Translations under genes and position numbers: made by a program
Assembly: GCF_000420385.1 (NCBI RefSeq)
Contig: NZ_ATUV01000001.1
Location: 806,001 to 870,000 of the forward strand
Direction: 5' to 3'
DNA length: 64,000 nucleotides
From: Hippea alviniae EP5-r
GTDB lineage: Bacteria; Campylobacterota_A; Desulfurellia; Desulfurellales; Hippeaceae
In this document: piece after piece, positions 24,884 to 57,400 of the stretch
Layout: every line of letters starts with the position of its first letter
How positions within the stretch are numbered: position 1 is the first letter of the stretch
Notes under the pieces: generated by a model
What the model was told of the DNA's origin: nothing
Seen by the model: only the letters and a program-made list of their open reading frames with translations
Databases searched by the model: none

Positions 24884-25782
<899 letters not shown>

Positions 25783-29221: not shown

Positions 29222-29896
29222 ATGGAAGAGATACAAAACAGAACAAAGAAAAACAGACAACCTATAATCATCATTGACGAAATTCAAACACTTGAAGATA
29301 TATACATAAACGGAGATAGAGAACTACTCAAAGAGTTCCTAAACTTCTGTGTCTCTTTAACAAAAGAGACACATCTGTCTCATGTTGTTATCCTAAGCTC
29401 AAACACTGTGTTTATAGATAGGATTTATAATGATGCAAAATTGAAGAAGACAAGTAAATTCTTCAAGGTTGACCATCTTGATAAGAGTATAGTTGTAGAG
29501 TGGTTAAGTTCTGAAGGATACACAGAAGAAGAGATAAATCTTATCTATGACTATCTTGGTGGTTGTATTCCAGATATACAAAGAATGATGTTTGAGAAGA
29601 AAGAGTTTAAGACATTGAAAGAGTATTTAGAGCATAGGGCGTTTTTGGCATATACTGAGATGGTTGACTTACTCACAAACGAAGAAGACTTCAACAAAAG
29701 AAAGATATTTAAAGAGATAGCAAAAGAGATAGTAAAAAACGGCAGATTTATAGCAAAAGAAGAATTACCAACGCAGGTGAAGAAGATTATAAATTTTTAC
29801 GCTGAAAAAGAGATACTCTTTTATGACCCGCTTACATTGGAAGTTAAAGGAAATAGCAGGATTTATGAGAAAGGGATGGAGAAGTTGGAGTTATAA
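29222..29896 (+). pseudogene. Truncated second copy of the P-loop ATPase
   Basis: The 224 residues match the C-terminal two thirds of the ATPase at 23712-24788, starting just before the Walker B segment IIIDEIQTL. The Walker A half is missing and there is no ribosome site, so it is most likely a broken duplicate. Residues 125-200 differ from copy 1, while the last 25 are identical. That pattern suggests an originally distinct paralogue overwritten in the middle by conversion. Confidence 0.75.
29267..29653 (+). repeat. Direct repeat, copy 2 (ATPase gene segment)
   Basis: This is the partner of 24162-24545. The two copies are in direct orientation about 5.1 kb apart and bracket the IS21 remnant, pilA, its partner gene and the TPR membrane protein. 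Recombination between them would delete or duplicate that block. Confidence 0.85.
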
Positions 29897-40962: not shown

Positions 40963-41633
40963 TCACACATCCCACTCAAGGAGCCTGTATGAGATTGCTT
41001 CTTTTATGTGGGATGGTTTAATTTTGTTTGATGTTTCAATATCCGCTATAGTTCTTGCTATTTTAAGAATTTTTGCATAACTTCTTGGTGACATGCCGAA
41101 CCTTTCTAAAGCCATTTTTAACAGCTGATGAGATTGCTCATCGATACTGCAATACTCCTTAATCATTCTTTCGTTCATCTGAGAGTTGAAGTTTATAGAC
41201 AGGTTCTTAAATCTTCCCTTCTGAACATCAACAGCAATATTAACCATCTCTCTCATTTGAGAAGATGATAAATCAACATCCATATCTGAAAGCTTCTCAT
41301 AATCAACTTCTGGAACATTAATCTGAATATCAATCCTGTCAAGAATAGGGCCTGATATCTTGCTTCTGTATTTTCTTATCTGCTGAATAGTGCAGGTGCA
41401 CTCCTTTCTCTTCGAACCATAATAACCACACGGACATGGGTTCATAGCAGCAACAAGCAGAAATCGAGACGGATATGTTATCTTTGCTTTTGCCCTTGAG
41501 ACTGTTATAACACCATCTTCAAGTGGCTGTCTCAAAGACTCTATAACATTCCTTTTAAACTCAGGAAACTCATCCAAAAACAAAACACCATTATGGGCAA
41601 GTGTTATCTCACCTGGTATGGCATTTGCTCCGC
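40963..41633 (-). pseudogene. comM: comM (yifB), 3' part, separated by the Tn7-like element
   Basis: This encodes the C-terminal 223 residues of ComM: ANAIPGEITLAHNGVLFLDE, then the zinc-binding CPCGYYGSKRKECTC, and LDRIDIQI with an arginine-finger region. The frame continues from the transposon end and joins 56557-57400 perfectly when the element and one copy of TCCGC are removed, giving a 504-residue protein. ComM is a RuvB-like branch-migration helicase that aids natural transformation. With the insertion it should be inactive. Confidence 0.95.
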
Positions 41634-41650
41634 TGTAGAATACATTATTT
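41634..41650 (+). repeat. Left terminal inverted repeat of the Tn7-like element
   Basis: TGTAGAATACATTATTT, identical to the right end in inverse. It is followed by TTGAAAC where the right end has CTGAGAC after one mismatch. Three ATTGAAA heptamers (41651, 41796, 41817) lie between this end and tnsA and may be part of TnsB binding sites. Confidence 0.93.
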
Positions 41651-41817
41651 ATTGAAACCAGAGCCAAACTCCTAACCTCTCTTCGTTTAATGGTTTTCTA
41701 TATAAGTATAGGAAATTTTCGCAAATTAATCAAAAATAAACCCTTAAAGTTTTGCACAAAAGATATTGATAATATAATAAAAATTGTTGAGAATAATTGA
41801 AATTTTAATATTAGTTA

Positions 41818-41846
41818 TTGAAAAAAATCTAATAATGTGTTATACT
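41818..41846 (+). promoter_or_regulatory. Promoter of tnsABC-tniQ, giving a nearly leaderless tnsA mRNA
   Basis: TTGAAA and TATACT are separated by 17 bases. The -10 box ends 5 bases before the ATG at 41852, so transcription should begin at or next to that ATG. The -35 box overlaps the third ATTGAAA heptamer, so a TnsB bound at the end could repress its own operon. Confidence 0.6.
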
Positions 41847-41851
41847 TAAGT

Positions 41852-42541
41852 ATGGAGAGTAAAAGACCTGTCAGAGATATCCCTATACAGAGCTTTTCCG
41901 TATCTGGGAAGTTCCCAAGCATAAAAAATCAAAGAACAGTTTATTACGAATCCCAGTTAGAACTTGATTTTATATATCACCTGGAGTTTTCTCCAGAGGT
42001 TGAGAGTTACCTTGAACAACCGTGCAAGATTAAATCACCTACAGGGAAGTTTTATATACCTGATTTTCTGGTGGTTTTTAAAAATTCCACTAGCTATAAA
42101 CCCTTGCTTGTTGAGATTAAATCCACTGAGGATATAGAGAAAAATTTTGAGAGACTGTCCGTAAAGTTTAAGACTCTTAGAGAGTACGCATTTGGTAATG
42201 GCTATGATTTTAAAATAATAACTGATAAGGAGTTAAAGACAACAAGAACAAAAAACTATAGATTTCTATACGGTTACATCAATCCCCAGCCTAAAGATGC
42301 CGAATTCGTTTCTGAAATTTTGCAGTTGGTCAAGGAGCATCAACCAATAAAAATAGAAGAGATTATCAGAATCTTTAATAAAGAAAATCCCCACAAAAGG
42401 GCTGTTTGCCTGTCTTGTCTATGGCATCTTATAGCCACATCAGTTCTTCGGGTAAATCTTGATGAAAATATAGCGGAACAATCTAAAGTGTTTTTAAATA
42501 ATAACACCGAAGAGGAAAGATTATGTCTCCTTTGGAAATAA
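41852..42541 (+). CDS. tnsA: Tn7-like transposase subunit TnsA (endonuclease)
   Basis: The 229-residue protein has a restriction-endonuclease fold signature: Glu in ESQLELDFIYHLE, Asp in YIPDFLVVF and the ExK pair in LLVEIKST. TnsA cuts the 5' ends of the element, giving cut-and-paste rather than replicative transposition. It is about 40 residues shorter than Tn7 TnsA (273). ATG at 41852 sits just downstream of a -10 box and has no ribosome site, consistent with leaderless translation; GTG 41837 would lie inside the promoter. It overlaps tnsB by 19 bases. Confidence 0.9.
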   Translation: MESKRPVRDIPIQSFSVSGKFPSIKNQRTVYYESQLELDFIYHLEFSPEVESYLEQPCKIKSPTGKFYIPDFLVVFKNSTSYKPLLVEIKSTEDIEKNFERLSVKFKTLREYAFGNGYDFKIITDKELKTTRTKNYRFLYGYINPQPKDAEFVSEILQLVKEHQPIKIEEIIRIFNKENPHKRAVCLSCLWHLIATSVLRVNLDENIAEQSKVFLNNNTEEERLCLLWK

Positions 42542-44403
42542 AAAAAGGAGTGGTTGTACTATACAAGGGTAGAAAGGTTGTAATTGATAATATTATAGAT
42601 CTATCCAACCTAGAAGTTGTTGATATTGAAACAGGGAACAGCTTTAAGATTCCCATTTCTGAGATTGAGCAAATCAAAGAGAAGGAAAGCAAACCATATC
42701 ATCCTATAGACCCAGAGTCTCCAGAATCCAGGTATTTTGATATAGCATACAAAAGGCTGGAAATAATAAAACCCTTGCTGGATTCCAGAGACAAAACAAA
42801 GGTTGAAGAGAGAGCGAAAGAGTTCAACCTAAGCCCCGCTACTCTTTACAGATGGATAAAAAAGTATGAGGAATCAGGGGAACGCCTTTCTTCTCTTGTG
42901 CCTTCGTACTATGACAGAGGAGGTAAAAGTAAAAAGCGTTTGCCCAGAGAGGTGGAGGAGATTGTTGATGAAATTATAAATGATGTGTATTTGAGTACAT
43001 CAAGAAGGGTTTCTGTAAAAAGAGCATATCAAGTTCTACTTATCAGGTGCAAGGAACTTGGATTGAAGCCTCCTCACATAAACACTTTGAGAAACAGGAT
43101 AAGAGAATTATCTCCTGAATATATAAGCAAGAAGAGAGAAGGCAGAGCTGTTTCTCAAGGTAAATACGGGGCATCTACAGGACACTTTGAGGTTGAAAAT
43201 CCACTTGAGGTTGTTCAAATAGATCATACGCCGCTCGATATAATTGTTGTTGACGAGAAAACCAGAGAGCCGATAGGAAGACCTTACTTAACACTGGCTG
43301 TGGATGTTTACAGCAGAATGGTTTATGGGTATTACCTTTCTCTTGATGCACCCGGTTACTTTTCTGTTGCCCAAACTTTGCTTACAGGAATACTTCCAAA
43401 GGATACTTTGCTGAAAAATCTTGGGATAGACGATAAGTGGGAAATATGGGGACTTCCAAAAAGCATCCATGTTGACAATGCAAAGGAATTCAGAAGCTCA
43501 TATCTGGAAAGTTTCTGCAATGAGTATGGTATCTCAATAAACTACCGTCCAAGAAAAACACCTCACTATGGTGGACATGTGGAAAGACTTATAGGGACTA
43601 TCAATAGAGAGATACACAACTTGCCAGGAACCACTTTTTCCAATACGGTTGAGAGGAAAGAGTATAAGTCTGAGAAACACGCTGTTTATACCCTGTTTGA
43701 TCTTGAAAAGTGGTTGATCAGATATATAGTAACTCAGTACCATAAAAGCGTTCACAGTGAACTTGAAATGACCCCCGAGGAAAAGTTTGCAGAGGGAATA
43801 TTTGGTGGAAACGGCAAACTGGGCAGCGGGTTTCCTAAAATGATAAGCAGAGAGGAGGCAGATAAGTTAAGGATTGCAATACTTCCGTCCTTTAAGAGAA
43901 CCATACAGAAAGACGGCGTTCACTTTTTTGGAGTGAGGTATTTTGACAATGTTCTAAAGCCTTTTATAGGATACCTAAGAAGGGGTGAGCAGCCCAAGAA
44001 ATACACTTTCAAGTATGATCCCAGAGATATGAGATTCATTTACTTTCAGCATCCGGAAACTAAAGAATACTACAAAATACCTTGCAGGGACAGAAGACTT
44101 CCAAGATTGTCCATATGGGAGCTGCGTGAACTCAAAAAGAAGATCGGAGTAAACAAAAGATACAACGAGACTCAGCTTATAGAAAACATAAAAGAGTTGC
44201 TGGAGTTCGAAGAAGAGGTTGAAAAAAAGAGCAAAAAACTAAAGAGAAAAAGAAACTCCAGAGTTCTGTACAGGGAGAAAGAGAAGATAGAAGGCTTAAA
44301 TACAACTGGCGTGGTGGATGAAAAAAATAACATCTATCGAGAGCCTGATAATCTTGATGGAGATGAAGACCTGGATGATATAGAGCCCTTTGAAGTGGAG
44401 TAG
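42523..44403 (+). CDS. tnsB: Tn7-like transposase TnsB (DDE integrase)
   Basis: The 626-residue Mu/TnsB-type transposase has N-terminal helix-turn-helix segments (LSPATLYRWIKKYEESG). An RNase H-like core carries Asp near 234 (VVQIDHTPLD), Asp near 318 (HVDNAKEF) and Glu near 352 (GGHVERLIG). A beta-barrel and a basic C-terminal tail follow; in Tn7 this tail contacts TnsC. TnsB binds the ends and joins the 3' ends to target DNA. It overlaps tnsA and tnsC. Confidence 0.95.
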   Translation: MSPLEIKKGVVVLYKGRKVVIDNIIDLSNLEVVDIETGNSFKIPISEIEQIKEKESKPYHPIDPESPESRYFDIAYKRLEIIKPLLDSRDKTKVEERAKEFNLSPATLYRWIKKYEESGERLSSLVPSYYDRGGKSKKRLPREVEEIVDEIINDVYLSTSRRVSVKRAYQVLLIRCKELGLKPPHINTLRNRIRELSPEYISKKREGRAVSQGKYGASTGHFEVENPLEVVQIDHTPLDIIVVDEKTREPIGRPYLTLAVDVYSRMVYGYYLSLDAPGYFSVAQTLLTGILPKDTLLKNLGIDDKWEIWGLPKSIHVDNAKEFRSSYLESFCNEYGISINYRPRKTPHYGGHVERLIGTINREIHNLPGTTFSNTVERKEYKSEKHAVYTLFDLEKWLIRYIVTQYHKSVHSELEMTPEEKFAEGIFGGNGKLGSGFPKMISREEADKLRIAILPSFKRTIQKDGVHFFGVRYFDNVLKPFIGYLRRGEQPKKYTFKYDPRDMRFIYFQHPETKEYYKIPCRDRRLPRLSIWELRELKKKIGVNKRYNETQLIENIKELLEFEEEVEKKSKKLKRKRNSRVLYREKEKIEGLNTTGVVDEKNNIYREPDNLDGDEDLDDIEPFEVE

Positions 44404-44410
44404 ACGCAAA

Positions 44411-45319
44411 GTGAAAGCAGTTGCTAAAAAAGACAAATTTAGCGATAAAGAGATAAAAAAGCACATAAATTCCCTAATCCCAGAAACCAGAGAAGTGCTG
44501 ACTGCACCAAAAGAAGAGAGAGTGGTATTCGCTATGACAGATAAATTCATAAATTACAGTAGGGCAAAAGAGATACTGGATTACTTTGAACTGCTTATAA
44601 AACTGCCCAGAAAACCGAGAATGAAAGGCGTTTTACTCTACGGAGAGTCTGGCACTGGCAAAACCATGATAGTTAGGCACTTCTTTGAAAAGTTTGCTCC
44701 CAAAGAAAATGAAGACGAAGACGCAGACGAGATTCCTGTTGTTTTGGTGGAAACTCCCACAGAACCCAAGGAGAGAATGATTTACGACAAAATAGCGGAC
44801 ACTCTGGGTTTCCCTTACAAGAAGAGTGAGGATATATTGGACAAAGAGAGAAACATAGAGCACTACGTGAACTTTATGCGCGTGAAAATGATCATATTCG
44901 ATGAGTTTCACAACATACTCAACGGGACGGCCATTCAGCAGAGGAGAGTGCTGTCGGTAATAAAAAGCCTGACAAACAGGCTGTGGATACCCATAGTCTT
45001 GGTTGGAACTAAAGACGTTCTTGTAGCAGTTGAGACCGACGATGAGATAAAAAGAAGGTTTGATCCTTACCAATTGCATCCATGGAGCGAAGATAAAGAT
45101 TTTTTAAGACTGTTGAGGACTGTAGAGGCCACGCTCCCGCTGAGATTGCCGTCTTACATGTGGAAAGACGAAGAGCTTGTCAGGTGGCTCATAAAAAGCA
45201 CTGATGGGATATTATCTGAAATAATACACCTTATAAAGCTAGGTGCCAGAAGAGCTATACTCTCTGGTGAGGAGAGGGTAACTCTGAAAATCCTTAAAGA
45301 GGCAAATCCGTTTGACTGA
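44411..45319 (+). CDS. tnsC: Tn7-like regulator TnsC (AAA+ ATPase, TniB-sized)
   Basis: This AAA+ ATPase has Walker A YGESGTGKT near residue 78 and Walker B MIIFDEFHN near 160. At 302 residues it is nearer TniB than the 555-residue Tn7 TnsC. It links target-selecting proteins to TnsAB. I chose GTG at 44411, because GTGGAG lies about 10 bases upstream; TTG at 44390 would add seven residues and overlap tnsB. Confidence 0.9.
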   Translation: MKAVAKKDKFSDKEIKKHINSLIPETREVLTAPKEERVVFAMTDKFINYSRAKEILDYFELLIKLPRKPRMKGVLLYGESGTGKTMIVRHFFEKFAPKENEDEDADEIPVVLVETPTEPKERMIYDKIADTLGFPYKKSEDILDKERNIEHYVNFMRVKMIIFDEFHNILNGTAIQQRRVLSVIKSLTNRLWIPIVLVGTKDVLVAVETDDEIKRRFDPYQLHPWSEDKDFLRLLRTVEATLPLRLPSYMWKDEELVRWLIKSTDGILSEIIHLIKLGARRAILSGEERVTLKILKEANPFD

Positions 45320-45325
45320 GGTTGT

Positions 45326-46507
45326 TTGAAAGTGAGCAGTGGTTTGTACTGCTTCAATTCTCTTGGAGCCAACAGATTAAGGGATAGGAAGATACCGATT
45401 CATCCTCAGCCTTTTGAAAATGAGCTTTTATCGTCGTGGTTTTGCAGAATGTCGGTCAAGAACCTTTCAACTCCTTCCACGTTCTTCGGTTTGCATCTTA
45501 GGGACTTCAAGGCTGTCTTCAGTGCTGATTTGGACTGGCCCAATGGCGAGTTTGTAAGTGCTATGTCGGAAAAAGTCGGCTTTTCAAAAAGCAAAATACT
45601 ATTCATGACGCTTAAGAGCTACGAAGGGTATTTGTTTGAATCTCAAAACAGATTCAGTAGCAGTAAACCTTTTATTAATCCTGTTAACTTCAGGGGCGGC
45701 AGCAATAGGAATTACGGGTTGAGGTACTGCCCTTACTGTCTCAGAGAAAAAGAGTACTTTCGCAAAGAGTGGAGATTGACTTTCTCAACGGTGTGTCCAA
45801 AGCATAAGGTGTTTCTGCTTGATAGATGTCCTGAGTGCGGAAAGCCCATAACTCTGCAAAAGTGGAGAAGCGACAAGGTGAACTTTCACTGCTGGAATTG
45901 TGGCTTTGAATTTAGGAACGCAGAGAGTGACAAAGTTCCTAAAGAGTCCAAAGGAGTAGAGGCGGTAAGCAAGCTTTACGAGATTTTGGATAAGGGATAC
46001 TTTGAGTTTGAGGGAAGGGTTTATTATTCTATATCTTATTTCAAGGTCTTGGCACACTTTGTTAAAATGGTTTACAATTTGTCTGTGAGGAGCTGGAATT
46101 TACTGAAAAAGGAGGAAAACATTATAGGTGTTAATCTTTCTAACCAGGCTAAAGGAGTTGTTTATTACAAAGTCCCTTTAAAGGAGCAGTATGTACTGTT
46201 CAGCGTGGTGGTTGATATATTATCGTCCAGAGAAAACATCGAGAGATTTATTGCCGTTAATAATCTTAAAAAAGCGTATCTGACAAGGGATTTTGTAGAT
46301 TACCCCTTTTGGTATAAAGAATTTGTTGATAAATACACTGGTGAATCGTATTCGCCGATTTTACTGGAAGTTGAAAATGCTTTGAAATATATGGATAGGA
46401 AGGGAATTAAAAGAACTTGGGATAACTTGAGGGAAATATTGGGGGTATGGGTGGAGGCGAAGAAGAGGAAGGATATAAAGAGGGTTTTAAATAGCGTTAA
46501 AAACTAA
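45326..46507 (+). CDS. tniQ: TniQ/TnsD-family target selector
   Basis: The 393-residue protein has the TniQ start (IHPQPFENELLSSWFCRMS) and zinc-finger cysteines: YCPYC, then CPKHKVFLLDRCPECG, then FHCWNCG. It is longer than minimal TniQ and close to TnsD, which binds a fixed chromosomal site. Because the element sits inside comM, this is the natural candidate for a comM-recognising TnsD. The start is TTG 45326 or GTG 45332, both behind GAGG. Confidence 0.88.
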   Translation: MKVSSGLYCFNSLGANRLRDRKIPIHPQPFENELLSSWFCRMSVKNLSTPSTFFGLHLRDFKAVFSADLDWPNGEFVSAMSEKVGFSKSKILFMTLKSYEGYLFESQNRFSSSKPFINPVNFRGGSNRNYGLRYCPYCLREKEYFRKEWRLTFSTVCPKHKVFLLDRCPECGKPITLQKWRSDKVNFHCWNCGFEFRNAESDKVPKESKGVEAVSKLYEILDKGYFEFEGRVYYSISYFKVLAHFVKMVYNLSVRSWNLLKKEENIIGVNLSNQAKGVVYYKVPLKEQYVLFSVVVDILSSRENIERFIAVNNLKKAYLTRDFVDYPFWYKEFVDKYTGESYSPILLEVENALKYMDRKGIKRTWDNLREILGVWVEAKKRKDIKRVLNSVKN

Positions 46508-46535
46508 CACGAATACCTTAAGGAGGACATTCTGT

Positions 46536-48506
46536 ATGGCTTCGATATTTAATGAACTAAAAGACATTTTTATTAAAGATAAAACATTTATAGATTCTCA
46601 GGGAAACCTTCTAAAAAATAAAATAGTAGAATCTGCTCTTAAATTAGATGAAAACTTAATAAAACTTCTTTTACAAAATGATAGAATAAAAAAACACTTC
46701 TTTAAAGATATAAATGGAGTAGGAGTAATAGTTTTTGATAAAGAAAAGTTTATGAAATTTATAGATAATAAAGAGTTTTTGCCTGATTCATATACTGCAT
46801 TTAAAAACAAAATTGGACTTGCCAATGAGGAAGGGAAATATCTAGCAAAGAGTAAAGAAGTTGTTTTGGTATGGCCATACAAAGATTGTGTGCTTGAAGG
46901 TGGACAAGGAAAACCTGATGAAAAAAGAAGAGAGATTTTTCACAATGTAATACTTGCTCCAGATGAGATTGACAGACTGTTGGAGCCGAAGGTTTTCACC
47001 AACTTTAAAAGAATTGATAAAGACGGAGAGCATCCGCTTGATGAATTTAAAAGAGATGCTGAGATAAACAGAAAAAGAGGATTGCCTGAAGATACGATAA
47101 CGGATAACCTGGTTATCAAGGGAAACAATCTTTTAGTGTTGCATTCTCTTTTAAAAGAATTTAGAGGGAAAGTTAAGTTAATTTATATTGATCCGCCGTA
47201 TAATACAGGAAGTGATGAGTTTCAATATAATGACAATTTTAAGCATTCTACATGGCTAACTTTTATGAAAAATAGACTGGAAGTTGCTAAAGAGTTGTTG
47301 AGGGAAGATGGTGCTATATTTGTTCAATTAGATGATAACGAACATGCATATTTAAAAGTATTGATGGATGAGATTTTTGGAAGAGAAAATTTTAGAGAAA
47401 ATATCGTGGTTAAAACAAGTACGCCAAGTGGTGTAAATGCAATTAATGTAAAAAGAGGGGAAAGGTTGTTTAAACTTAAAGAATATATTCTTTTTTATTC
47501 TAAAAAACCATCTTTTAGATTTAATCCACTTTATGTAAAGAGTAAGTTTAACATTAACTATAGGTATGAAATAACAAAAGAAAATGGGAAATATATCATA
47601 AAAGATTTAATGAAAGTTTTTAAAGATATAACCAAGTTAGAAGAGTATGCCTTAAATAATTTTGAAAAAATATATTCTCTTGAAAAAAACAATAAGAAAG
47701 CAGGTGAAAAAATAAAAAAAGTGATACAAGAATCTAAAAACTTAGATGATGTTATAGAATACATAAACACAAAAGGTGAAAAGGTCTTAATTTATAAAGG
47801 TGGGGTTTTTATTCCCTTAAAAGAAAGAATTGTAAAAGAAAATGGGAAGAACTATTTTGGAACGCTTATCTCAGATTTATGGGATGATGAAATATTCCAA
47901 ACAAACAGCACAGAAGGAGGCGTTAATTTACCAGGTGGGAAAAAGCCAGAAAAATTATTGAAAAGAGTTTTAGAACTTACTACTAAAGAAAATGATATAA
48001 TTCTTGATTTTTTTATGGGTACTGGAACAACATGTGCTGTAGCCCACAAGATGAATAGGCAATATATAGGAATAGAACAAATAGATTACAGCAAGAATAG
48101 TGCGGTAGTTAGATTAAAGAATGTGATTAATGGTGATAAAACAGGAATTTCAAAAGATGTAAATTGGGAAGGTGGGGGCGAGTTTGTATTTATGGAACTT
48201 ATGAAAAATAATGAAGCATTTATTGAAAAAATTGAGGAAGCGCAAACAGAGACGGAATTGTTAAAGATATGGATTGATATGAAGCAACACTCTTTTTTAA
48301 GTTACAAAGTTAATATTAAACTGTTTGAAAAAAATATAGAAAAATTGAAAAAATTTGATTTAGGTAAACAAAAAAGAATTCTTTTAGATTTCTTAGAATA
48401 TAATGAGTTGTATGTAAATTATAGTGAGATTAATGATAGTATTTATAATATAAACAAAAAAGATAAAATGTTGAATTATAATTTTTATGAAGGGAGGGCT
48501 ATCTAA
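46536..48506 (+). CDS. mod: Type III restriction-modification DNA methyltransferase (Mod)
   Basis: The 656-residue adenine-N6 methyltransferase has motif IV DPPYNTG near residue 217 before motif I FFMGTGTT near 491, the beta-class order of type III Mod subunits. The target recognition domain lies between (about 290-470). It methylates one strand of an asymmetric site and also guides Res. TTAAGGAGGAC precedes ATG. It is the first cargo gene after tniQ and is markedly more AT-rich than the tns genes. Confidence 0.92.
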   Translation: MASIFNELKDIFIKDKTFIDSQGNLLKNKIVESALKLDENLIKLLLQNDRIKKHFFKDINGVGVIVFDKEKFMKFIDNKEFLPDSYTAFKNKIGLANEEGKYLAKSKEVVLVWPYKDCVLEGGQGKPDEKRREIFHNVILAPDEIDRLLEPKVFTNFKRIDKDGEHPLDEFKRDAEINRKRGLPEDTITDNLVIKGNNLLVLHSLLKEFRGKVKLIYIDPPYNTGSDEFQYNDNFKHSTWLTFMKNRLEVAKELLREDGAIFVQLDDNEHAYLKVLMDEIFGRENFRENIVVKTSTPSGVNAINVKRGERLFKLKEYILFYSKKPSFRFNPLYVKSKFNINYRYEITKENGKYIIKDLMKVFKDITKLEEYALNNFEKIYSLEKNNKKAGEKIKKVIQESKNLDDVIEYINTKGEKVLIYKGGVFIPLKERIVKENGKNYFGTLISDLWDDEIFQTNSTEGGVNLPGGKKPEKLLKRVLELTTKENDIILDFFMGTGTTCAVAHKMNRQYIGIEQIDYSKNSAVVRLKNVINGDKTGISKDVNWEGGGEFVFMELMKNNEAFIEKIEEAQTETELLKIWIDMKQHSFLSYKVNIKLFEKNIEKLKKFDLGKQKRILLDFLEYNELYVNYSEINDSIYNINKKDKMLNYNFYEGRAI

Positions 48507-49106
48507 ATGGGTTATCAAAAGGATAGAAAATTTACAGAATATATTCACAAAAAGATAGCATTAAAAAAAATATATGAACCCTTAAATTGGGAAAAAATTA
48601 AAGTAGATAAGAAAGAAATAGAAAAGATAGACATCAATAAAGGGATAGATAGGATTTTTAAAAACTCAGAAGATAACTTGATTACAGTGCAAGAAAGATT
48701 TAGAAGCAAAGAGTATGAAAACTACAATGATTTTACTATAAGATATACAAGAGAAAAAAATATTCATCATAATAGAAGAAAGTCAGAATTTTTTAAAATA
48801 GAAGCTGATTATTTTGTATATGGAATTACAAACTGTAATAAAGATAAAATTAATTTCAATTGTAATGATTTTATTAAATTTGCAGTTATTGATATGAAGA
48901 TTATAAAAGAGCTAATAGATAAAGGAATTATTATTATTGATGAAAATTCCCAAAAAAAAGAATCTTTTTTGAAGAATGGAAAATTAATAACACCAATATT
49001 AAAGAATAAAGATGATTCCTCAGAATTTATCGCTTTAAGTATTCCTGATTTAAATAAATTAGATAAAAGAGCAGTAATTTTTCAAAAAGGATTTGAATAT
49101 GTATAA
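48507..49106 (+). CDS. Unknown protein between mod and res
   Basis: The 199-residue protein starts on the base after the mod stop and overlaps res by 14 bases, so it is an integral part of the operon. It is rich in Lys, Ile and Asn. One conserved-looking stretch reads NLITVQERFRSKEY, then YNDFTIRYTRE and FKIEADYFVYGI. The spacing of acidic residues and Gln/Arg recalls PD-(D/E)XK-like nuclease cores, but this is only a guess. Standard type III systems have just mod and res. Confidence 0.7.
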   Translation: MGYQKDRKFTEYIHKKIALKKIYEPLNWEKIKVDKKEIEKIDINKGIDRIFKNSEDNLITVQERFRSKEYENYNDFTIRYTREKNIHHNRRKSEFFKIEADYFVYGITNCNKDKINFNCNDFIKFAVIDMKIIKELIDKGIIIIDENSQKKESFLKNGKLITPILKNKDDSSEFIALSIPDLNKLDKRAVIFQKGFEYV

Positions 49107-51726
49107 TAATAAAACATTAAGTCAAGAATACGATGTTCTTTATAAACATGGAGTTATCAAAAAGGATATTCCAAAATATATTACCGATAATCTTAATCCT
49201 CGTTTCAAGTTAAGGCCATATCAGATTGAGGCAATAGCGAGGTTTATCTACTATATGGAAGAAGATTTCAATAGCAATAGAAATAAACCAACACAATTGC
49301 TTTTTAACATGGCAACGGGTTCTGGTAAAACCCTTTTGATGGCTGCTAATATACTTTATCTTTATAATAAAGGTTATAGGAACTTTCTTTTTTTTGTTAA
49401 CAGCACCAACATAATAGAGAAAACAAGGGACAACTTTTTAAATCCCCTCTCCCCCAAATATCTATTTAGTCAGAGAATTAAATTTGAAGATAAAGAAATC
49501 AGCATAAGAGAAGTATCCAATTTTGACGAAGCTAATGAGGAAGATATAAATATAATCTTCACGACAATACAGGGACTGTATAGTCAGTTAAATCTTTTTA
49601 GGGAAAATTCCGTCACTTTTGAAGATTTTAGAGATAAGAAAATCGTTTTAATTTCAGACGAAGCCCATCATATAAACGCTTGGACAAGGAATAGATTAAA
49701 CAAAACTGAAGAGGAAATGAAAAAGACTTGGGAATATACTGTTATGCGAATTTTAAATTCAAATCCTGAAAATATGATGCTTGAATACACCGCTACCATT
49801 GATTTAGATAATCCTGCTATTTACGAAAAGTATAAAGATAAGATAATTTTTGAATACGATCTCAAGCAGTTTAGAGTTGATGGTTATTCTAAAGAAGTGA
49901 AAGTCTTACAGGCAGATTTAGACAATTGGGAAAGGATGTTGCAGGCAGTTATTTTAAGCCAATATAGAAGAAAAATTGCAGAGAGAAATGGGATTAGATT
50001 AAAACCTGTAATCCTTTTCAAATCAAGAAGTATCAAAGAATCCAAAGAAAATTATGAGCTGTTCAGAGAAAGAATGGACAATCTAAGTGAAGTGGATATA
50101 GAAAATATAAAAGCCAATACTAATGAGACAGTATTGGAGAGAGTCTTTAATTATTTTAAAAACGAGGGTATAACTACGGATAATCTAATAACTGAGTTAA
50201 AAGAAGATTTCTCCGAAGAAAAATGTATTTTGCTTGATTCCGAAAATATGGATAAAAATAAGCAGATTAAACTTAATACTCTTGAGGATGAGAACAACGA
50301 AATTAGAGCTATTTTTGCAGTTAAAATGCTTGATGAAGGATGGGATGTATTGAATCTCTTTGATATAGTCAGACTTTATGATACAAGAGATGGGCGATGG
50401 ATAAAAGATGGAAAATATATCCCTGGAAATACCACTCTTGCAGAAAGACAACTTATTGGGAGAGGAGCACGGTATTATCCTTTTAAAATCAATGAAGATG
50501 ATGATCCTTTTAAGAGAAAATTTGATAATCAGCCAGAAAATCCTTTAAAAATTCTTGAAGAGCTTTATTACCACAGTAAACACAATCCAAGATATATACA
50601 GGAACTTACAACTGCACTTAAAGAATATGGGATTATGCCTTATGAAGAAAAAGAGATTCAATTAAAAGTAAAACCTAATATAAAGAATACTGAGTTTTGG
50701 AAAAAAGGATTTTTATTTGTAAATAAAAAAGTTAAAACTGACAGAAAAGGCATTAAGACTATTGATGATATTGAAATAGAAAGAACATACAGATACAGAC
50801 TCCCAACGGGATTTTCGAGAGAAGATGTTGTTTTACAAGAAGAAAACACTAGTAGAAATTCTTTTGAAACAACTACCCGAACATTTAGCTTAGGCAATTT
50901 TGGAGACACAATCATAAGAAAGGCAATGGCAAAACTTGATTTCTATAGATTCAACAATCTTAAAAAATACTTTCCTGATTTGAATTCCTCAAAAGAATTT
51001 ATTGAGTCTCTAAAGAAGATAAATGCTGATGTTATCAGTTCAAAGGAAAAATTGAATAATCTAACACCCGACGATGAGCTGAAGATCTGTTTAAGCGTAT
51101 TACTACAGCTGGAAAATGAGATTATGAATGAGTATGTTGAATACAAAGGAACTGAAATTTTTGTTCCGGTAGAGATTAAGAGAATTGTAAAAGATAAACA
51201 ACTCAAAATAAATGTTGGAGAGTGTGGAGATAAAGAATATGGAATACCTATGAGTAACGCGAAACATCCAGACTTACAGTTGAATCTATCCGATAAAGAT
51301 TGGTATGTTTATGATGAGAATTATGGGACTTCTGAAGAGAAATCTTTTGTTAAGTTTATTGATGGTGTTATAAACGACTTAAAACAGCAATATAGCGAAG
51401 TGTATTTATTAAGAAATGCGAGCCTGTTTAAAATTTATAGATTCTCAGATGGTAAGGCTATGGAACCAGATTTTGTTTTGTTTTTAAAAAAAGAAAATTC
51501 TGAAGAAATAGAGCAGTATCAGTTATTCATAGAGGCAAAAGGAGAACATCTAATTGAAAGAGATAAATGGAAAGAAGATTTCTTAAAAGAGATTGAGAAA
51601 AAGCATAAACTTGAGGCTACTTTATTTGGAGAGAATGAAAAATATAGATTAATTGGGTTGCCATTTTATAATGATAATACAAAATTTAAGTTTATGGGTG
51701 AGTTCAGAAAAAAACTTGATTTGTAA
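49093..51726 (+). CDS. res: Type III restriction endonuclease subunit (Res)
   Basis: The 877-residue protein has a superfamily 2 helicase core with Walker A MATGSGKT near residue 75, DEAHH near 190 and AERQLIGRGARYYPF near 460 (motif VI). A C-terminal PD-(D/E)XK nuclease carries EPDFVLF and FIEAKGEHL near 795-815. It translocates or slides from an unmethylated site and cuts about 25 bases away in complex with Mod. All catalytic motifs are intact. Confidence 0.93.
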   Translation: MNMYNNKTLSQEYDVLYKHGVIKKDIPKYITDNLNPRFKLRPYQIEAIARFIYYMEEDFNSNRNKPTQLLFNMATGSGKTLLMAANILYLYNKGYRNFLFFVNSTNIIEKTRDNFLNPLSPKYLFSQRIKFEDKEISIREVSNFDEANEEDINIIFTTIQGLYSQLNLFRENSVTFEDFRDKKIVLISDEAHHINAWTRNRLNKTEEEMKKTWEYTVMRILNSNPENMMLEYTATIDLDNPAIYEKYKDKIIFEYDLKQFRVDGYSKEVKVLQADLDNWERMLQAVILSQYRRKIAERNGIRLKPVILFKSRSIKESKENYELFRERMDNLSEVDIENIKANTNETVLERVFNYFKNEGITTDNLITELKEDFSEEKCILLDSENMDKNKQIKLNTLEDENNEIRAIFAVKMLDEGWDVLNLFDIVRLYDTRDGRWIKDGKYIPGNTTLAERQLIGRGARYYPFKINEDDDPFKRKFDNQPENPLKILEELYYHSKHNPRYIQELTTALKEYGIMPYEEKEIQLKVKPNIKNTEFWKKGFLFVNKKVKTDRKGIKTIDDIEIERTYRYRLPTGFSREDVVLQEENTSRNSFETTTRTFSLGNFGDTIIRKAMAKLDFYRFNNLKKYFPDLNSSKEFIESLKKINADVISSKEKLNNLTPDDELKICLSVLLQLENEIMNEYVEYKGTEIFVPVEIKRIVKDKQLKINVGECGDKEYGIPMSNAKHPDLQLNLSDKDWYVYDENYGTSEEKSFVKFIDGVINDLKQQYSEVYLLRNASLFKIYRFSDGKAMEPDFVLFLKKENSEEIEQYQLFIEAKGEHLIERDKWKEDFLKEIEKKHKLEATLFGENEKYRLIGLPFYNDNTKFKFMGEFRKKLDL

Positions 51727-51734
51727 GTGTAAGT

Positions 51735-51765
51735 AGAGAATAGAAAACCACACCTATTCTCTTTT
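51735..51765 (+). terminator. Terminator after res
   Basis: AGAGAATAG and CTATTCTCT form a 9-bp stem with a 10-base loop, followed by TTTGC. It lies 9 bases after the res stop, between the convergent res and the TcmP-fusion gene. The T-run is short, so confidence is moderate. Confidence 0.6.
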
Positions 51766-51787
51766 GCTCTGTTTGTTTGAAAGAAGT

Positions 51788-53593
51788 TTACTCATTTGAA
51801 TCGGAAAATATATATTTTGTGTCTTTTTTACCATTTATTTCATTAGATGAAGTAGGGGTTCCTACTTTGATGTGATATTTTATTCCATTTTTTTCGCAGA
51901 AATTTATAACTTTCTGTGAAATCTCTTTATAGAAATCCTCGTTTTCTTCGAAGTGTTTACTTTGGGTGTTATAATTTATTTTTCCGAAAACCAGTTTGTC
52001 CACGAATTTTATCTTTTCTAAAAGTTTTTCTATGTTCTTAGCACTATAATCAAGATTTGGAGTTGGGTATGGTTCTATACTAACCCAAGTTTTTAAGCCT
52101 GCTTTGTGTAATCCATATAAAGATTCAATTCGTTTTTCATAAGGAGCCGAATAAGGTTCAAATCTTACCTTAAATTCTTGATTTAAGGATACAAGTGTTA
52201 TTCCATATTCGTTACTCTTCAGTAAATCAGATTTAACTATTTCTTCAATTGGGTAAAACCCTTTTGTAAGAGTAGTAACTCTGATCCCGTTTTTATTTAG
52301 CAAAGCTATTATTTGCATAGAGAGATTTTTTACTTCAGGTATAAGTTCTCCTTTTTTAAAGTCATACATGAATGGATCTGTCATAAAAGACAGATGAACA
52401 AATCTTATACTTTCTTTATATTTCTTTATCTCCTTTTCTAAGAGATCTAAAGCATTTTCAGCGATTCTTGGCTTTCTCCAGTCTTCATAACTTTTAACCC
52501 ATCCAAACCTTTTAGCCATCATCATGGCATAGCAAGGAAATCGACAACCATGAGAGCAACCTATGATGTGATTTATAGTCCAATCACCGTATTCTACTTT
52601 AGTCTTGTATAATAAGTGTTTTCTTTTGATAAAATAATAATTTAACTCTTTCTCGTTTCTCACTGGGGTAATTTCCAGTATAGATTTTATATAAAATTCC
52701 TTACTATTAAATAAAGTCTTTCCTTTTATTTTCTCTTTCTGCCTAGCATATATGTCTTTCACTATTTGGACTATTTTCTTATTTTTAGAAGCAAAAAGTA
52801 GATAGTACAGATCGTCTTTTCTGTCAGGGTATTCTACATTATATCCTACGACATACAGATTCTTTTCAGAGTAAGTAGCATTGACATAACTTTTGAGTAC
52901 TTTTAAATCTTCAGGTTTTTTTCTCTCGATTATTTTTATATCATTTCCTAGAAAACTCTTTAATGTATCAACTGCTTTAATTTCTCTTCTACTTATTTTC
53001 TCACCCCTTATTTTTTTAAGCTCTATGCCACTTGTTCTTCTAACACCTTCAAGAATATAGTTAAAGAGAATATCTTTGGTGTTTTTTAAATCTATTATCT
53101 TATCCATTGTCCTTCTTTTTATTTGAAGCCCAGTTGGATCTACCAAAACAAATAAAGGGTTTTCTTTCTTATTTGAAATTTCTTCTAAAACATAGTCTAT
53201 TTCTTCATTACAATCGCCATTCAATATTTTACAATCTACAACATCATTTATACAAGCATTTTCCTCTAAGTAACCATTAATTTCATTTTTGAGATTTTCA
53301 AAATTTCTTTTATTCTTTTCTATGCTAAATAAATGTATCTCAATTCCCTTATCCTTTAATTTTTTTATTTGGTTTTTAATTTGCTTAAGAAAAATAACGG
53401 ATGAACCTGGAACCTTTTTACCTTTATCTGTGTAAAATCCCTGACCAGCAAATAAGTCAATAACATACCATTCATTATTAATCCAATTTTGGGCTTGCCA
53501 TATGGTTAGCCATACATAAAATGTACTTTTTATAAGCTCAAGTTTAGTTTTTGTAGACTTTCTGTCTGTTATATCCCACAAATCTTTGGGCAC
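51788..53593 (-). CDS. TcmP-like domain fused to a three-Cys-motif radical-SAM-like domain
   Basis: Residues 1-330 resemble the three-Cys-motif partner protein TcmP: the start MPKDLWDITDRKSTKTKLEL, a Rossmann-type motif VIDLFAGQGFYTD and VLVDPTG, suggesting a SAM-binding fold. Residues 335-590 resemble the three-Cys protein itself (DUF5131/phage Gp37-Gp68-like): GCSHGCRFPCYAMMMAKRFG with Cys-x3-Cys-x3-Cys, then SFMTDPF and KTWVSIEP. TcmP and this partner are usually separate adjacent genes; here they are one 601-residue chain. The substrate is unknown. It is transposon cargo, so a defence role is plausible. Confidence 0.75.
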   Translation of the reverse strand: MPKDLWDITDRKSTKTKLELIKSTFYVWLTIWQAQNWINNEWYVIDLFAGQGFYTDKGKKVPGSSVIFLKQIKNQIKKLKDKGIEIHLFSIEKNKRNFENLKNEINGYLEENACINDVVDCKILNGDCNEEIDYVLEEISNKKENPLFVLVDPTGLQIKRRTMDKIIDLKNTKDILFNYILEGVRRTSGIELKKIRGEKISRREIKAVDTLKSFLGNDIKIIERKKPEDLKVLKSYVNATYSEKNLYVVGYNVEYPDRKDDLYYLLFASKNKKIVQIVKDIYARQKEKIKGKTLFNSKEFYIKSILEITPVRNEKELNYYFIKRKHLLYKTKVEYGDWTINHIIGCSHGCRFPCYAMMMAKRFGWVKSYEDWRKPRIAENALDLLEKEIKKYKESIRFVHLSFMTDPFMYDFKKGELIPEVKNLSMQIIALLNKNGIRVTTLTKGFYPIEEIVKSDLLKSNEYGITLVSLNQEFKVRFEPYSAPYEKRIESLYGLHKAGLKTWVSIEPYPTPNLDYSAKNIEKLLEKIKFVDKLVFGKINYNTQSKHFEENEDFYKEISQKVINFCEKNGIKYHIKVGTPTSSNEINGKKDTKYIFSDSNE

Positions 53594-53679
53594 AACTACC
53601 TCCTCCGAAAATTATAGTAAATTTCGTAAAAATAGGAAACAGTTTTAATTTTATTACCTATTATTCCTTTAAGAGCCTC

Positions 53680-53973
53680 TCAAACAACTCCTCTTCTATA
53701 ATATCCTTTTTTATCTTCTCTTTTATGTTTTTTCACTCTTTCTTTTAGTATTTCTGAACCTGTTTTAAGTAGATATTCCCCTGTTACAAGCTCTTCTATT
53801 ATTCCGTTCATTTCATCTTCATTGTCCAGCATATGTCCGTATATTTCTTCCAATTTTTCTAGGTGATTTTTCAGATAAGACCTTTCGTAAGCCATATCCA
53901 TCTCTATTTCGTTTAACTTTTCTTTGTAGTAATCACTCAACTTTTCGTATGGAAAACTTAAAATTTTGCCCAT
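53680..53973 (-). CDS. Small unknown protein in the tnsE-exonuclease operon
   Basis: The 97-residue, highly charged, mostly helical protein (LKNHLEKLEEIYGHMLDNED...) has a basic C-terminus ending KKGYYRRGVV. It follows the exonuclease gene by 13 bases. It resembles no family I know. A helical adaptor or DNA-binding partner of the exonuclease or TnsE would fit, but nothing in the sequence proves it. Confidence 0.6.
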   Translation of the reverse strand: MGKILSFPYEKLSDYYKEKLNEIEMDMAYERSYLKNHLEKLEEIYGHMLDNEDEMNGIIEELVTGEYLLKTGSEILKERVKKHKREDKKGYYRRGVV

Positions 53974-53986
53974 ATACAGTCACCTC

Positions 53987-54823
53987 TTATCTGCTATCGT
54001 TAACTATAATTTCGCATTCGTCAATTCTTTCAGGTACGGCTATATTTTTCCCTTCTTTAGCTATTAATAGTTTATTAAAAATTTTGGCCAAATTCAAAAC
54101 ATCCTCAGCACAGTATTTTGCTATCTCATTGAATCTCATATTTTCGTAGTATTCTTTTACTTCTGATCCATCCATAAAAGTTTTAGCCTCAAATCCATAC
54201 AGAATGGCTAAAGCTTTCAAATTAGTACGGAAAAAGTTATAGGTGTCTATCTGATATGTTGAGTACTGCTTTGTATAGTTTGCTTTCTCTTTTTCCCACT
54301 TATCTGAGTCATCCAAATATTTCCTAAGTCCTTCTTTCGCTTCCTTAGAGAGACTATCATAATGCTGTATGGCTCTCATGGTAAGTATAGGTAAATCAAA
54401 CTTTAAACCGTTATGAGACACTAAGAAGGGATAGGAAAACAGCGGTTCAGCGTAAAGGTTTTCGAATTTTTTATTTATCCACTTTGTAGTATAACGTAAG
54501 AGCCCAAAAAATTCGTTTACTATATTAACAGCATTTAAAGAAAATATAGATTTAAATACAAATCTTTTCCCATTTTTGAAGATAGGGACATCTTTACTTG
54601 TAGTCAATAGATAAGACAGACATATTGGTTTATGATATACGGCAGAAGGTATATACTCATCCTCTTCATCCATATATCTTTTTATTTGATTCCTTTTTGC
54701 CGCTTTGTTGAATAGATCTTCTTCAACAATGGTTTCTATATCGAATATTATAAAGACTTTATCATCTCTATCTAGTGCATTTTGGATATCTTGCCTATCT
54801 TGCCTGTGTTCTGGTTCACTCAT
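53987..54823 (-). CDS. DEDDy-type 3'-5' exonuclease (PolB-like)
   Basis: The 278-residue protein has the three exonuclease motifs of the DEDDy class: Exo I FDIET near residue 28, Exo II SHNGLKFDLPIL near 138, and Exo III YCAEDVLNL near 240 with the YxxxD spacing. It resembles the stand-alone PolB-type exonuclease domain (DNA_pol_B_exo2). There is no polymerase domain. It starts 4 bases after the tnsE-like stop, so the two are surely co-translated; a role in processing or sensing replication-linked target DNA is inferred. Confidence 0.85.
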   Translation of the reverse strand: MSEPEHRQDRQDIQNALDRDDKVFIIFDIETIVEEDLFNKAAKRNQIKRYMDEEDEYIPSAVYHKPICLSYLLTTSKDVPIFKNGKRFVFKSIFSLNAVNIVNEFFGLLRYTTKWINKKFENLYAEPLFSYPFLVSHNGLKFDLPILTMRAIQHYDSLSKEAKEGLRKYLDDSDKWEKEKANYTKQYSTYQIDTYNFFRTNLKALAILYGFEAKTFMDGSEVKEYYENMRFNEIAKYCAEDVLNLAKIFNKLLIAKEGKNIAVPERIDECEIIVNDSR

Positions 54824-54827
54824 GTGT

Positions 54828-56468
54828 TTAACCCCCTTTCGTCAATATTTGCACAGTTGTTTTTACCCAGTTTTCCCAATCCTTTCTGTTGTTTCCCTGC
54901 AAAGGTTTCTTGTAATAAATATCGAATCCTCTTCTTTTGCAAAAAACCTTGAAACTTTTTCTACTTATCTCCATAAAGCTTTTGAAAAAGCGTTCTATCT
55001 CATCAGGAAATCCCAAGTATCTTTCTCCTATAAGTATGGGGGATGTTATGTAATTTTCCTGTGATTGGGATTTTTGATCAACAAATATTGCCGTCATCTT
55101 TTTCCCATCTAGCAAGTCGGCATAGAACACCCCTACTCTTCTTTTTCCTTCCTTTGGATAGTAGAGTTTGGGAATATTCTTCTTTGAAACTTTTATGAAG
55201 ATCTCAGGGGTGAATTCCCTGTATTCCATTTTAATGCCGAGACTCAAAGCAACGTGATTCATCAGTTTTCTTACCGTCTCAAGATCAAATACTCTTGAAT
55301 TCTTGTCTTTGGTTGGCTTTTCTTTGGCTTGCGACCTCACTCTTTTGGCTTTGCCTTCTTTTACGTGATCCTGAACGTTGCTTAATCTTTTTACCTCCTC
55401 GCCTCTCGTTATTGATGGGGCAAATACGGCCTCCTCAAAATTGTCTTTGATGATCTTCTTAACTATCTTCACTGAGCTGCCGGCTGGAGGGGATGTGAAT
55501 GTAACATGGATGGTTTCAGGGTATTCCCTTGCATTTAGATATTCAGAGGTGCTGTAGACGTTGTTCGTGTTGGACTTTGTCAGCGGTTTAGGTGAGAAGA
55601 TCAGTCTTTTCCCTTTTACTGAGCTTCTCGTTCTAACTTCAACAAATTCTGTCTTAAGCAGTTTTACGGTGTTTACGTATAGAATTTCCGCCACAAAGAG
55701 GGAGTTTGCAGTCACAGGGATCACCCTTGCTCTGAGTTCCCAGTCTCCAGATGTTGGAAATGGAAACTTAAAAGCGTATCTGATCTCTTTTTTCTTTTTT
55801 TCTTTGCTGTAGAATTCTTTTGCACGCTGTTTTCTGGCGACTGCATCATAATTCTCTTTTGCCTCTAGATTAGTTGAATACAGGTAGAGAGAGATTATCT
55901 CGTTGTATTGATTGGAGTATCCTGGTTTCAATTGAATGAATGGCGGGTTTTTACCATACTTTTCAACTTCACATGAAAGTTTTGTTGAAAAAAGATTGGT
56001 GGTGAACTTGTGGGACAAAAAGCAGAAAAATGTCCCTAGAACCGTTGAAGGGAAATAGTAGTTTTTGTTATCCACAGAAATTCTTACCACCCATTGTCTG
56101 TCTATTTCATCTTTATTCCTTATCTTTAAAAGCTTTTTGAAATACCTTGAAAGCTCTGGAAATTGCGATATTTTTTGAGGGTTGTTTTGTTCTCTACTTA
56201 TATTAAGGAATAGTATTTTTTCTTCTCCTATTTTTTCAATTTTTACTGAGTTCTGATTATAGAGGACTCTTTGAAAAGGTAGGTAGAATTTTAGTAATTC
56301 TATCGGGATTTCTAAGATATTTATACAACCATCTTCCCTAATGAACGGGACTCTAAAGTGGTGACCAGTTTTTCTATGGTCGTTTGGTTTTATGTAGTCT
56401 AGGATCAAAGGAATGAAATAAACAGCATTGTGAGACAGTTCAGCTATGAATATCTCCGCAGGGTTCAT
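54828..56468 (-). CDS. tnsE: TnsE-like target-selection protein
   Basis: The 546-residue protein matches Tn7 TnsE (538) in length and layout. It has an N-terminal beta-rich half with YYFPSTVLGTFFCFLSHKFT and FKFPFPTSGDWELRARV, a disordered basic linker (about 355-405), and a C-terminal domain with RRVGVFYADLLDGKKMTAIF and SPILIGERYLGFPDEIERFF. I judged the match from memory of the Tn7 sequence; identity is low. TnsE directs insertion into lagging-strand and conjugating DNA through the sliding clamp. It lies at the end opposite to tnsABC and points inward. CGGGAGG precedes ATG. Confidence 0.72.
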   Translation of the reverse strand: MNPAEIFIAELSHNAVYFIPLILDYIKPNDHRKTGHHFRVPFIREDGCINILEIPIELLKFYLPFQRVLYNQNSVKIEKIGEEKILFLNISREQNNPQKISQFPELSRYFKKLLKIRNKDEIDRQWVVRISVDNKNYYFPSTVLGTFFCFLSHKFTTNLFSTKLSCEVEKYGKNPPFIQLKPGYSNQYNEIISLYLYSTNLEAKENYDAVARKQRAKEFYSKEKKKKEIRYAFKFPFPTSGDWELRARVIPVTANSLFVAEILYVNTVKLLKTEFVEVRTRSSVKGKRLIFSPKPLTKSNTNNVYSTSEYLNAREYPETIHVTFTSPPAGSSVKIVKKIIKDNFEEAVFAPSITRGEEVKRLSNVQDHVKEGKAKRVRSQAKEKPTKDKNSRVFDLETVRKLMNHVALSLGIKMEYREFTPEIFIKVSKKNIPKLYYPKEGKRRVGVFYADLLDGKKMTAIFVDQKSQSQENYITSPILIGERYLGFPDEIERFFKSFMEISRKSFKVFCKRRGFDIYYKKPLQGNNRKDWENWVKTTVQILTKGG

Positions 56469-56481
56469 GAAAACCTCCCGC

Positions 56482-56533
56482 GGAGAGTCTCATTAACTTT
56501 TGTAGAGTCGCAGTAACTTTTGTAGAGTCTCAG
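56482..56533 (-). repeat. Right-end tandem repeats of the Tn7-like element
   Basis: Two copies of the 20-base unit TAACTTTTGTAGAGTCKCAG (56494-56513 and 56514-56533) follow a partial copy, GGAGAGTCTCAT. They lie immediately inside the right terminal repeat and just upstream of the tnsE start, where overlapping TnsB sites lie in Tn7. The left end lacks this array, so the ends are asymmetric. Confidence 0.8.
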
Positions 56534-56534
56534 G

Positions 56535-56551
56535 AAATAATGTATTCTACA
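56535..56551 (-). repeat. Right terminal inverted repeat of the Tn7-like element
   Basis: This is the exact inverse of 41634-41650. The next five bases, TCCGC (56552-56556), repeat 41629-41633 and are the target duplication. Confidence 0.93.
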
Positions 56552-56556
56552 TCCGC

Positions 56557-57400
56557 CGCCGATTAAACTTACATCACTCGAGCCTGAGTGCGGTGCTCTA
56601 AATGGCCTGGTTGTTATAATTGGGTTATCGTTATTCAAAAACCCACAAACGCTGTATATTTTTGTCGTTGTTAGAATCTCATCTTCGCTCATCTCTGGAA
56701 GAATTGTCGGAATTCTTTTAGCTATCATGCTCTTTCCCACACCCGGTGTGCCTATCATTAAGACATTGTGAAAACCAGCTGCTGCAATAGTAATAGCCCT
56801 TTTTACTTTGAATTGACCTTTAACATCTGCAAAATCCAAATCGTAATCACCTTTAGCTTTTACAAGCTCAATATTTAAACTGCTCTTGTTTTTCTTTACC
56901 TTACCAAGCAAAAATCCTAACACTTCTGAAAATGTATCAAATCCGTAAGTCTCAACACCACTTAAAGCTGCTTCCTTCTCATTCTCTTTGCTTACAATAA
57001 GTTTCAATCCCTTCTCTTTTGCTAAAACGCCCATAGGAAAAATACCTTTAACAGGCCTTAGAATGCCGTTTAGAGATAACTCAGCAGCAAACAAGAATCC
57101 TTCGGTATCTATCTTTAAATTCTCAGATATGCTTGCAAGCCCTAACGCTATAGGTAAATCCACAGCCGAAGTCTCCTTTTTTAAATCAGCTGGTGCAAGG
57201 TTTATCGTTATCTTTTTTGGCGGCAGTTCTATACCACTGTTCTTTAGCACATGTATAGCCCTATCCTTACTCTCTTTGGCTGCTCCTGATGCAAGCCCTA
57301 TTATGTTAAGAGATGGTAAACCCTTAGCCGCATCTATCTCAATTGATATAGGTATGGCATCTATGCCTTCTATTACTGCACTTTTTAAACTTATGAACAT
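56557..57400 (-). pseudogene. comM: comM (yifB), 5' part, separated by the Tn7-like element
   Basis: This encodes the N-terminal 281 residues: the S5-like domain (INLAPADLKKETSAVDLPIA) and the AAA+ Walker A MIGTPGVGKSM, up to SDVSLIGGG. The frame then runs 28 codons into the transposon end and stops at 56465. The break falls in the ATPase core between Walker A and Walker B, so neither half can work alone. The start codon overlaps the stop of the FN3 lipoprotein gene by 1 base (TAATG). Confidence 0.95.

Follow-up and report, generated by a model that had tools for sequence, protein, structure and literature searches.

The window analysed here, a stretch of 64,000 nucleotides of the Hippea alviniae EP5-r genome (RefSeq assembly GCF_000420385.1, contig NZ_ATUV01000001.1, positions 806,001 to 870,000 of the forward strand), contains a complete Tn7-like element of 14,918 bp (41634..56551, no strand assigned). 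It is bounded by perfect 12-bp terminal inverted repeats (TGTAGAATACAT) and flanked by a 5-bp target-site duplication, TCCGC (left copy 41629..41633, right copy 56552..56556), and it was the sole TGT...ACA pair with an exact flanking 5-bp duplication in the scanned range. Near its right end the element encodes, all on the minus strand, a divergent TnsE of 546 amino acids (aa) (54828..56468), a PolB-exonuclease-like DEDDy 3'-5' exonuclease of 278 aa (53987..54823) and a helical protein of 97 aa (53680..53973). As a preliminary description of this DNA had stated, the tnsE-like gene is at the right end and points inward, and the three open reading frames as well as the 4-bp gap between tnsE and the exonuclease gene (54824-54827) were confirmed. 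A distance of 83 bp separates tnsE from the end of the element, and a further gap of 13 bp separates the exonuclease gene from the gene for the 97-aa protein. That the three genes form one operon is well supported and they would presumably be transcribed together, but co-translation, which had also been proposed, is at best presumptive, as the exonuclease and 97-aa genes each have their own ribosome-binding-like sequence.

On its own the 546-aa protein had no convincing match in Pfam, NCBIfam, PHROGs or, by sequence, the PDB. The Pfam family TnsE_C (PF18623) matched no protein of the genome or the window, and no close relatives of the 546-aa protein were found in plasmids or viral contigs. Loci with related TnsB proteins (80 from one genome contig scan, and plasmid records in addition) often carried a gene for 500-650 aa at the same place and on the same strand. 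A profile was seeded with the proteins at the tnsE position of a Nitrosophilus plasmid (L003) and of Arcobacter (L020), with the window protein left out, and expanded to 52 members, among them TnsE of Tn7. Against this blind profile the 546-aa protein was the top open reading frame of the window with an E-value of 2e-9 over residues 47-457, while the best of 200 shuffled sequences scored 0.11 in the same round and, across all rounds, 0.03, all values referring to a small test set of window open reading frames and shuffles. An earlier 34-member profile had given 4.7e-7. The profile signal is borne by residues 1-390 alone (9.2e-10), and residues 391-546 reached no significance with a C-terminal profile or with hhalign.

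The preliminary description had looked to residues 400-546 for the likeness to TnsE; by sequence this proved the weakest part, and what spoke for the suggestion there was the predicted fold. Of 350,542 PDB chains compared with an AlphaFold2 model of residues 391-546 (predicted local distance difference test, pLDDT, 65; predicted template modelling score, pTM, 0.61), the three best belonged to the TnsE C-domain crystal structures 5D17 and 5D16 (probability 0.90-0.98, template modelling score, TM, 0.57-0.59, Foldseek E 0.05-0.18), with the next-best match at a probability of 0.09. The input alignment contained TnsE family members, which may bias the model toward this fold. Modelling of the whole protein gave a poor result (pLDDT 43), and no meaning could be attached to the PDB search made with it. 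Taken together, the blind profile and the predicted fold indicate that the 546-aa protein is a distant, diverged TnsE homologue, as had been proposed. It is linked to TnsE of Tn7 by the family profile and probably by the fold of the C-domain, but C-domain identity is 10-14%, PF18623 misses it, and its gene lies outside a tnsABCD operon. Just 2 of 26 aligned family homologues were detected by PF18623, which is in line with the identity of less than 10% shared by the two TnsE branches (Faure et al. 2023, PMC10293859). In the same study, Tn6022-type elements inserted in comM were described as carrying a divergent tnsE at their far end, encoded on the opposite strand, and many loci fetched here show this arrangement. 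The location of tnsE, which the preliminary description had taken to be unusual, is therefore already published and not new.

The exonuclease belongs to family PF10108 (DNA_pol_B_exo2; E 2.1e-17) and its motifs DIE, NGLKFD and YCAED are intact, so that the earlier assignment as a stand-alone enzyme of the DEDDy type held. Among 397 Campylobacterota genomes, 162 carried a relative at E 1e-8, with an identity of about 30% across the core. Aquificota had relatives in 26 of 136 genomes, and there identity rose to 45% over nearly the full length. The Aquificota relatives are chromosomal and often have a RecC/ExoV-gamma-like gene as their neighbour; their loci yielded no tnsE. The window protein thus shares the family, a similar length and, in the better matches, 30-45% identity with the stand-alone exonucleases of Aquificota and Campylobacterota, but it is transposon-borne behind tnsE whereas the examined relatives are chromosomal. 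In phages, plasmids and viral contigs the search yielded distant PF10108 genes only. The 97-aa protein gave weak family matches only, none of them of known function and none convincing. A sliding-clamp motif (QL(S/D)LF-like or hexapeptide), for which the preliminary description had suggested to look, was found neither in TnsE nor in the exonuclease or the 97-aa protein, although a degenerate form is possible.

The pairing of tnsE with an exonuclease did not recur. We surveyed 48 other tnsE homologues for which the downstream gene was visible, and behind none of them was the exonuclease present. In 21 cases tnsE was convergent with its neighbour (11 of these running into tniQ), and in the other 27 a co-directional gene followed, within 100 bp in 15. 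The co-directional neighbours varied and included a UvrD-like helicase, a nucleoid-associated protein, a methylase and unknowns. A tblastn search of the exonuclease against the collected related loci found nothing. Nowhere in the titles and abstracts searched was TnsE reported together with a linked exonuclease, in agreement with the preliminary description, which knew of no such module. In three related Pseudoalteromonas elements a putative UvrD/Rep-like helicase of 866-888 aa overlaps tnsE or trails it by at most 38 bp (L047 14322-16922, L051 7210-9876, L063 7386-10001), the UvrD-like family assignment by Pfam having been made for L051 only. It is possible that this protein is a fork-related partner, or merely shared cargo.

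The element interrupts comM/yifB at a GGG codon run. Both fragments of the gene lie on the minus strand, the C-terminal one at 40963..41667 (PF01078 1.5e-52, PF13335 2e-29) and the N-terminal one at 56465..57400 (PF13541 5.8e-36, TIGR00368 1.2e-79), the latter comprising about 284 comM codons before the open reading frame enters the element. A comM fragment was present in 46 loci, about 40 of which had the same boundary as the window (GGG / SGxxPxPGEIS); it precedes the LFLDE Walker B motif by a few codons. TnsF is the known comM selector of Tn6022, and a TnsF profile search of the window gave none. We therefore call the element Tn6022-like rather than filing it as Tn6022. Elements without a visible TnsF are numerous at the conserved comM site; besides the window element they include L012, L052 and Bacteroidota loci such as L014, L022 and L057. 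Like members of the comM-homing, Tn7-like Tn6022 family (PMC10293859), the window element is inserted in comM, has tnsA, tnsB, tnsC and tniQ together at one end and carries a divergent, oppositely oriented tnsE at the other; it differs by the missing TnsF gene, by its cargo and by a TnsB that is about 36-39% identical to Acinetobacter homologues. The far-end tnsE adjoins the target gene in several loci, and besides comM these genes were, by eye, dprA, lipA and argJ (L092-L099, L101-L104 and L107 for the conserved host genes other than comM), which suggests that several different genes serve as homing targets of related elements.

At the left end of the element four genes follow each other closely on the plus strand. 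These are tnsA (41837..42541; PF08722 1.6e-13, PF08721 9.1e-08), the DDE transposase gene tnsB (42523..44403; PF09299 2.8e-09), whose product has 48% identity to a Desulfohalobiaceae homologue, tnsC for a TniB-type AAA ATPase (44390..45319; PF05621 6.4e-57) and tniQ for a protein of 393 aa (45326..46507; PF06527 5.1e-24), with no tnsF behind it. Between tniQ and tnsE lie, in this order, cargo genes: a type III restriction-modification system on the plus strand (mod, a 199-aa open reading frame and res, 46536..51726; PADLOC MTase_III 1.7e-188, REase_III 2.1e-133), a gene on the minus strand for TcmP fused to a radical-SAM/DUF5131-type protein (51788..53593; TIGR04474 3.5e-33, PF04055 5.8e-10), and then, as probable cargo, the 97-aa gene and the exonuclease gene. 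Just inside the right end three direct repeats of about 20 bp (56484..56543, minus strand) are probable TnsB-binding sites. No relatives of TnsB or TnsE were found outside the window in the 25 genomes of the organism's own phylum. The TcmP and radical-SAM/DUF5131-type parts, one open reading frame here, correspond to two adjacent genes of similar annotation (Gp37/Gp68 family and TcmP) in a Methylobacter plasmid element (L005 25371-27419). The Nitrosophilus plasmid (L003 14741-21569) has two tnsA-tnsB pairs in tandem, with tnsC and tniQ behind the second only, perhaps reflecting nested or tandem insertions. Elsewhere in the window a long ATPase stretch (23712-24788) recurs in shortened form at a distance of about 4.5 kb (29222-29896), and a transposase-like remnant (25012-25560) lies between the two copies.

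We consider it probable, at roughly 0.8, that these genes represent the distal tnsE end of a comM-homing, Tn6022-like element of the Tn7 type, behind whose tnsE the exonuclease and the 97-aa protein were captured as cargo. TnsA and TnsB would cut and join the element ends, TnsC and TniQ would, from their homology, guide the element to comM in the chromosome, and the inward-pointing tnsE would probably open a second route, to DNA that is being replicated or conjugated. The cargo lies between tniQ and tnsE, and because of this the gene that lands nearest tnsE would become its operon partner. The exonuclease and 97-aa genes would thus be cargo read from the tnsE promoter, and the exonuclease would most likely trim 3' DNA ends in repair or defence, as its chromosomal relatives may do, rather than shape TnsE targets. 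Some observations weigh against such a capture. The exonuclease gene is tightly spaced behind tnsE, it was not recognised as a known defence gene, and no other PF10108 gene was found in the host genome, so that a mere spare copy of a host gene does not explain it. Furthermore, the contigs with the closest TnsB relatives (L009 and L010) are too short to reveal what follows tnsE, and the pair might therefore be common to a small clade of sister elements. A functional link of TnsE and exonuclease private to this element is likewise conceivable.

The preliminary description had suggested that a linked exonuclease could shape or proofread the target. In a true TnsE-exonuclease module of this kind, the enzyme would process 3' ends at forks or gaps into the recessed-end substrate that TnsE prefers. 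The 4-bp operon spacing and the intact DEDDy active site would fit such a function, as would the presence of another DNA-processing gene beside the three Pseudoalteromonas tnsE genes. Occurrence in a single element had been named beforehand as evidence against the module, and the result of the survey (0 of 48), the chromosomal relatives unlinked to tnsE and the missing clamp motif make it unlikely. With the module unsupported, captured cargo is the better reading of the exonuclease behind tnsE. A broader form of the idea, that tnsE of this branch sometimes recruits into its operon a DNA-processing enzyme (here the exonuclease, in Pseudoalteromonas the UvrD-like helicase) that makes the ends at forks or gaps ready for TnsE, is a similarly doubtful proposal. 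It seems quite improbable that the operon of tnsE, exonuclease and 97-aa gene replaces TnsF in comM recognition, with the TnsE-like protein as the homing selector beside its target: the absence of TnsF, the short TniQ and the many elements in which tnsE directly adjoins the target gene speak for it, but in Tn7-like elements a lone TniQ/TnsD commonly picks the target sites. Finally, the failure of Pfam, NCBIfam and PDB sequence searches, the non-significant C-terminal third and the poor full-length model might be taken to mean that the 546-aa protein is an unrelated cargo protein. This is very improbable given its score against the blind profile relative to the shuffles, the wide gap between the TnsE entries and the next fold match, and a position and strand as in other end-located tnsE genes.

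The pairing of the exonuclease with tnsE would matter only if it were recurrent or altered targeting; if DNA-processing enzymes were indeed recruited by this branch of tnsE, they would represent a class of accessory targeting factors that has not yet been described. In Tn6022-like elements it is common for a divergent tnsE to be located at the end, and the Pfam model overlooks most of these genes. The Hippea alviniae element, which is complete and comM-homing but lacks TnsF, makes the question of how comM is recognised testable.
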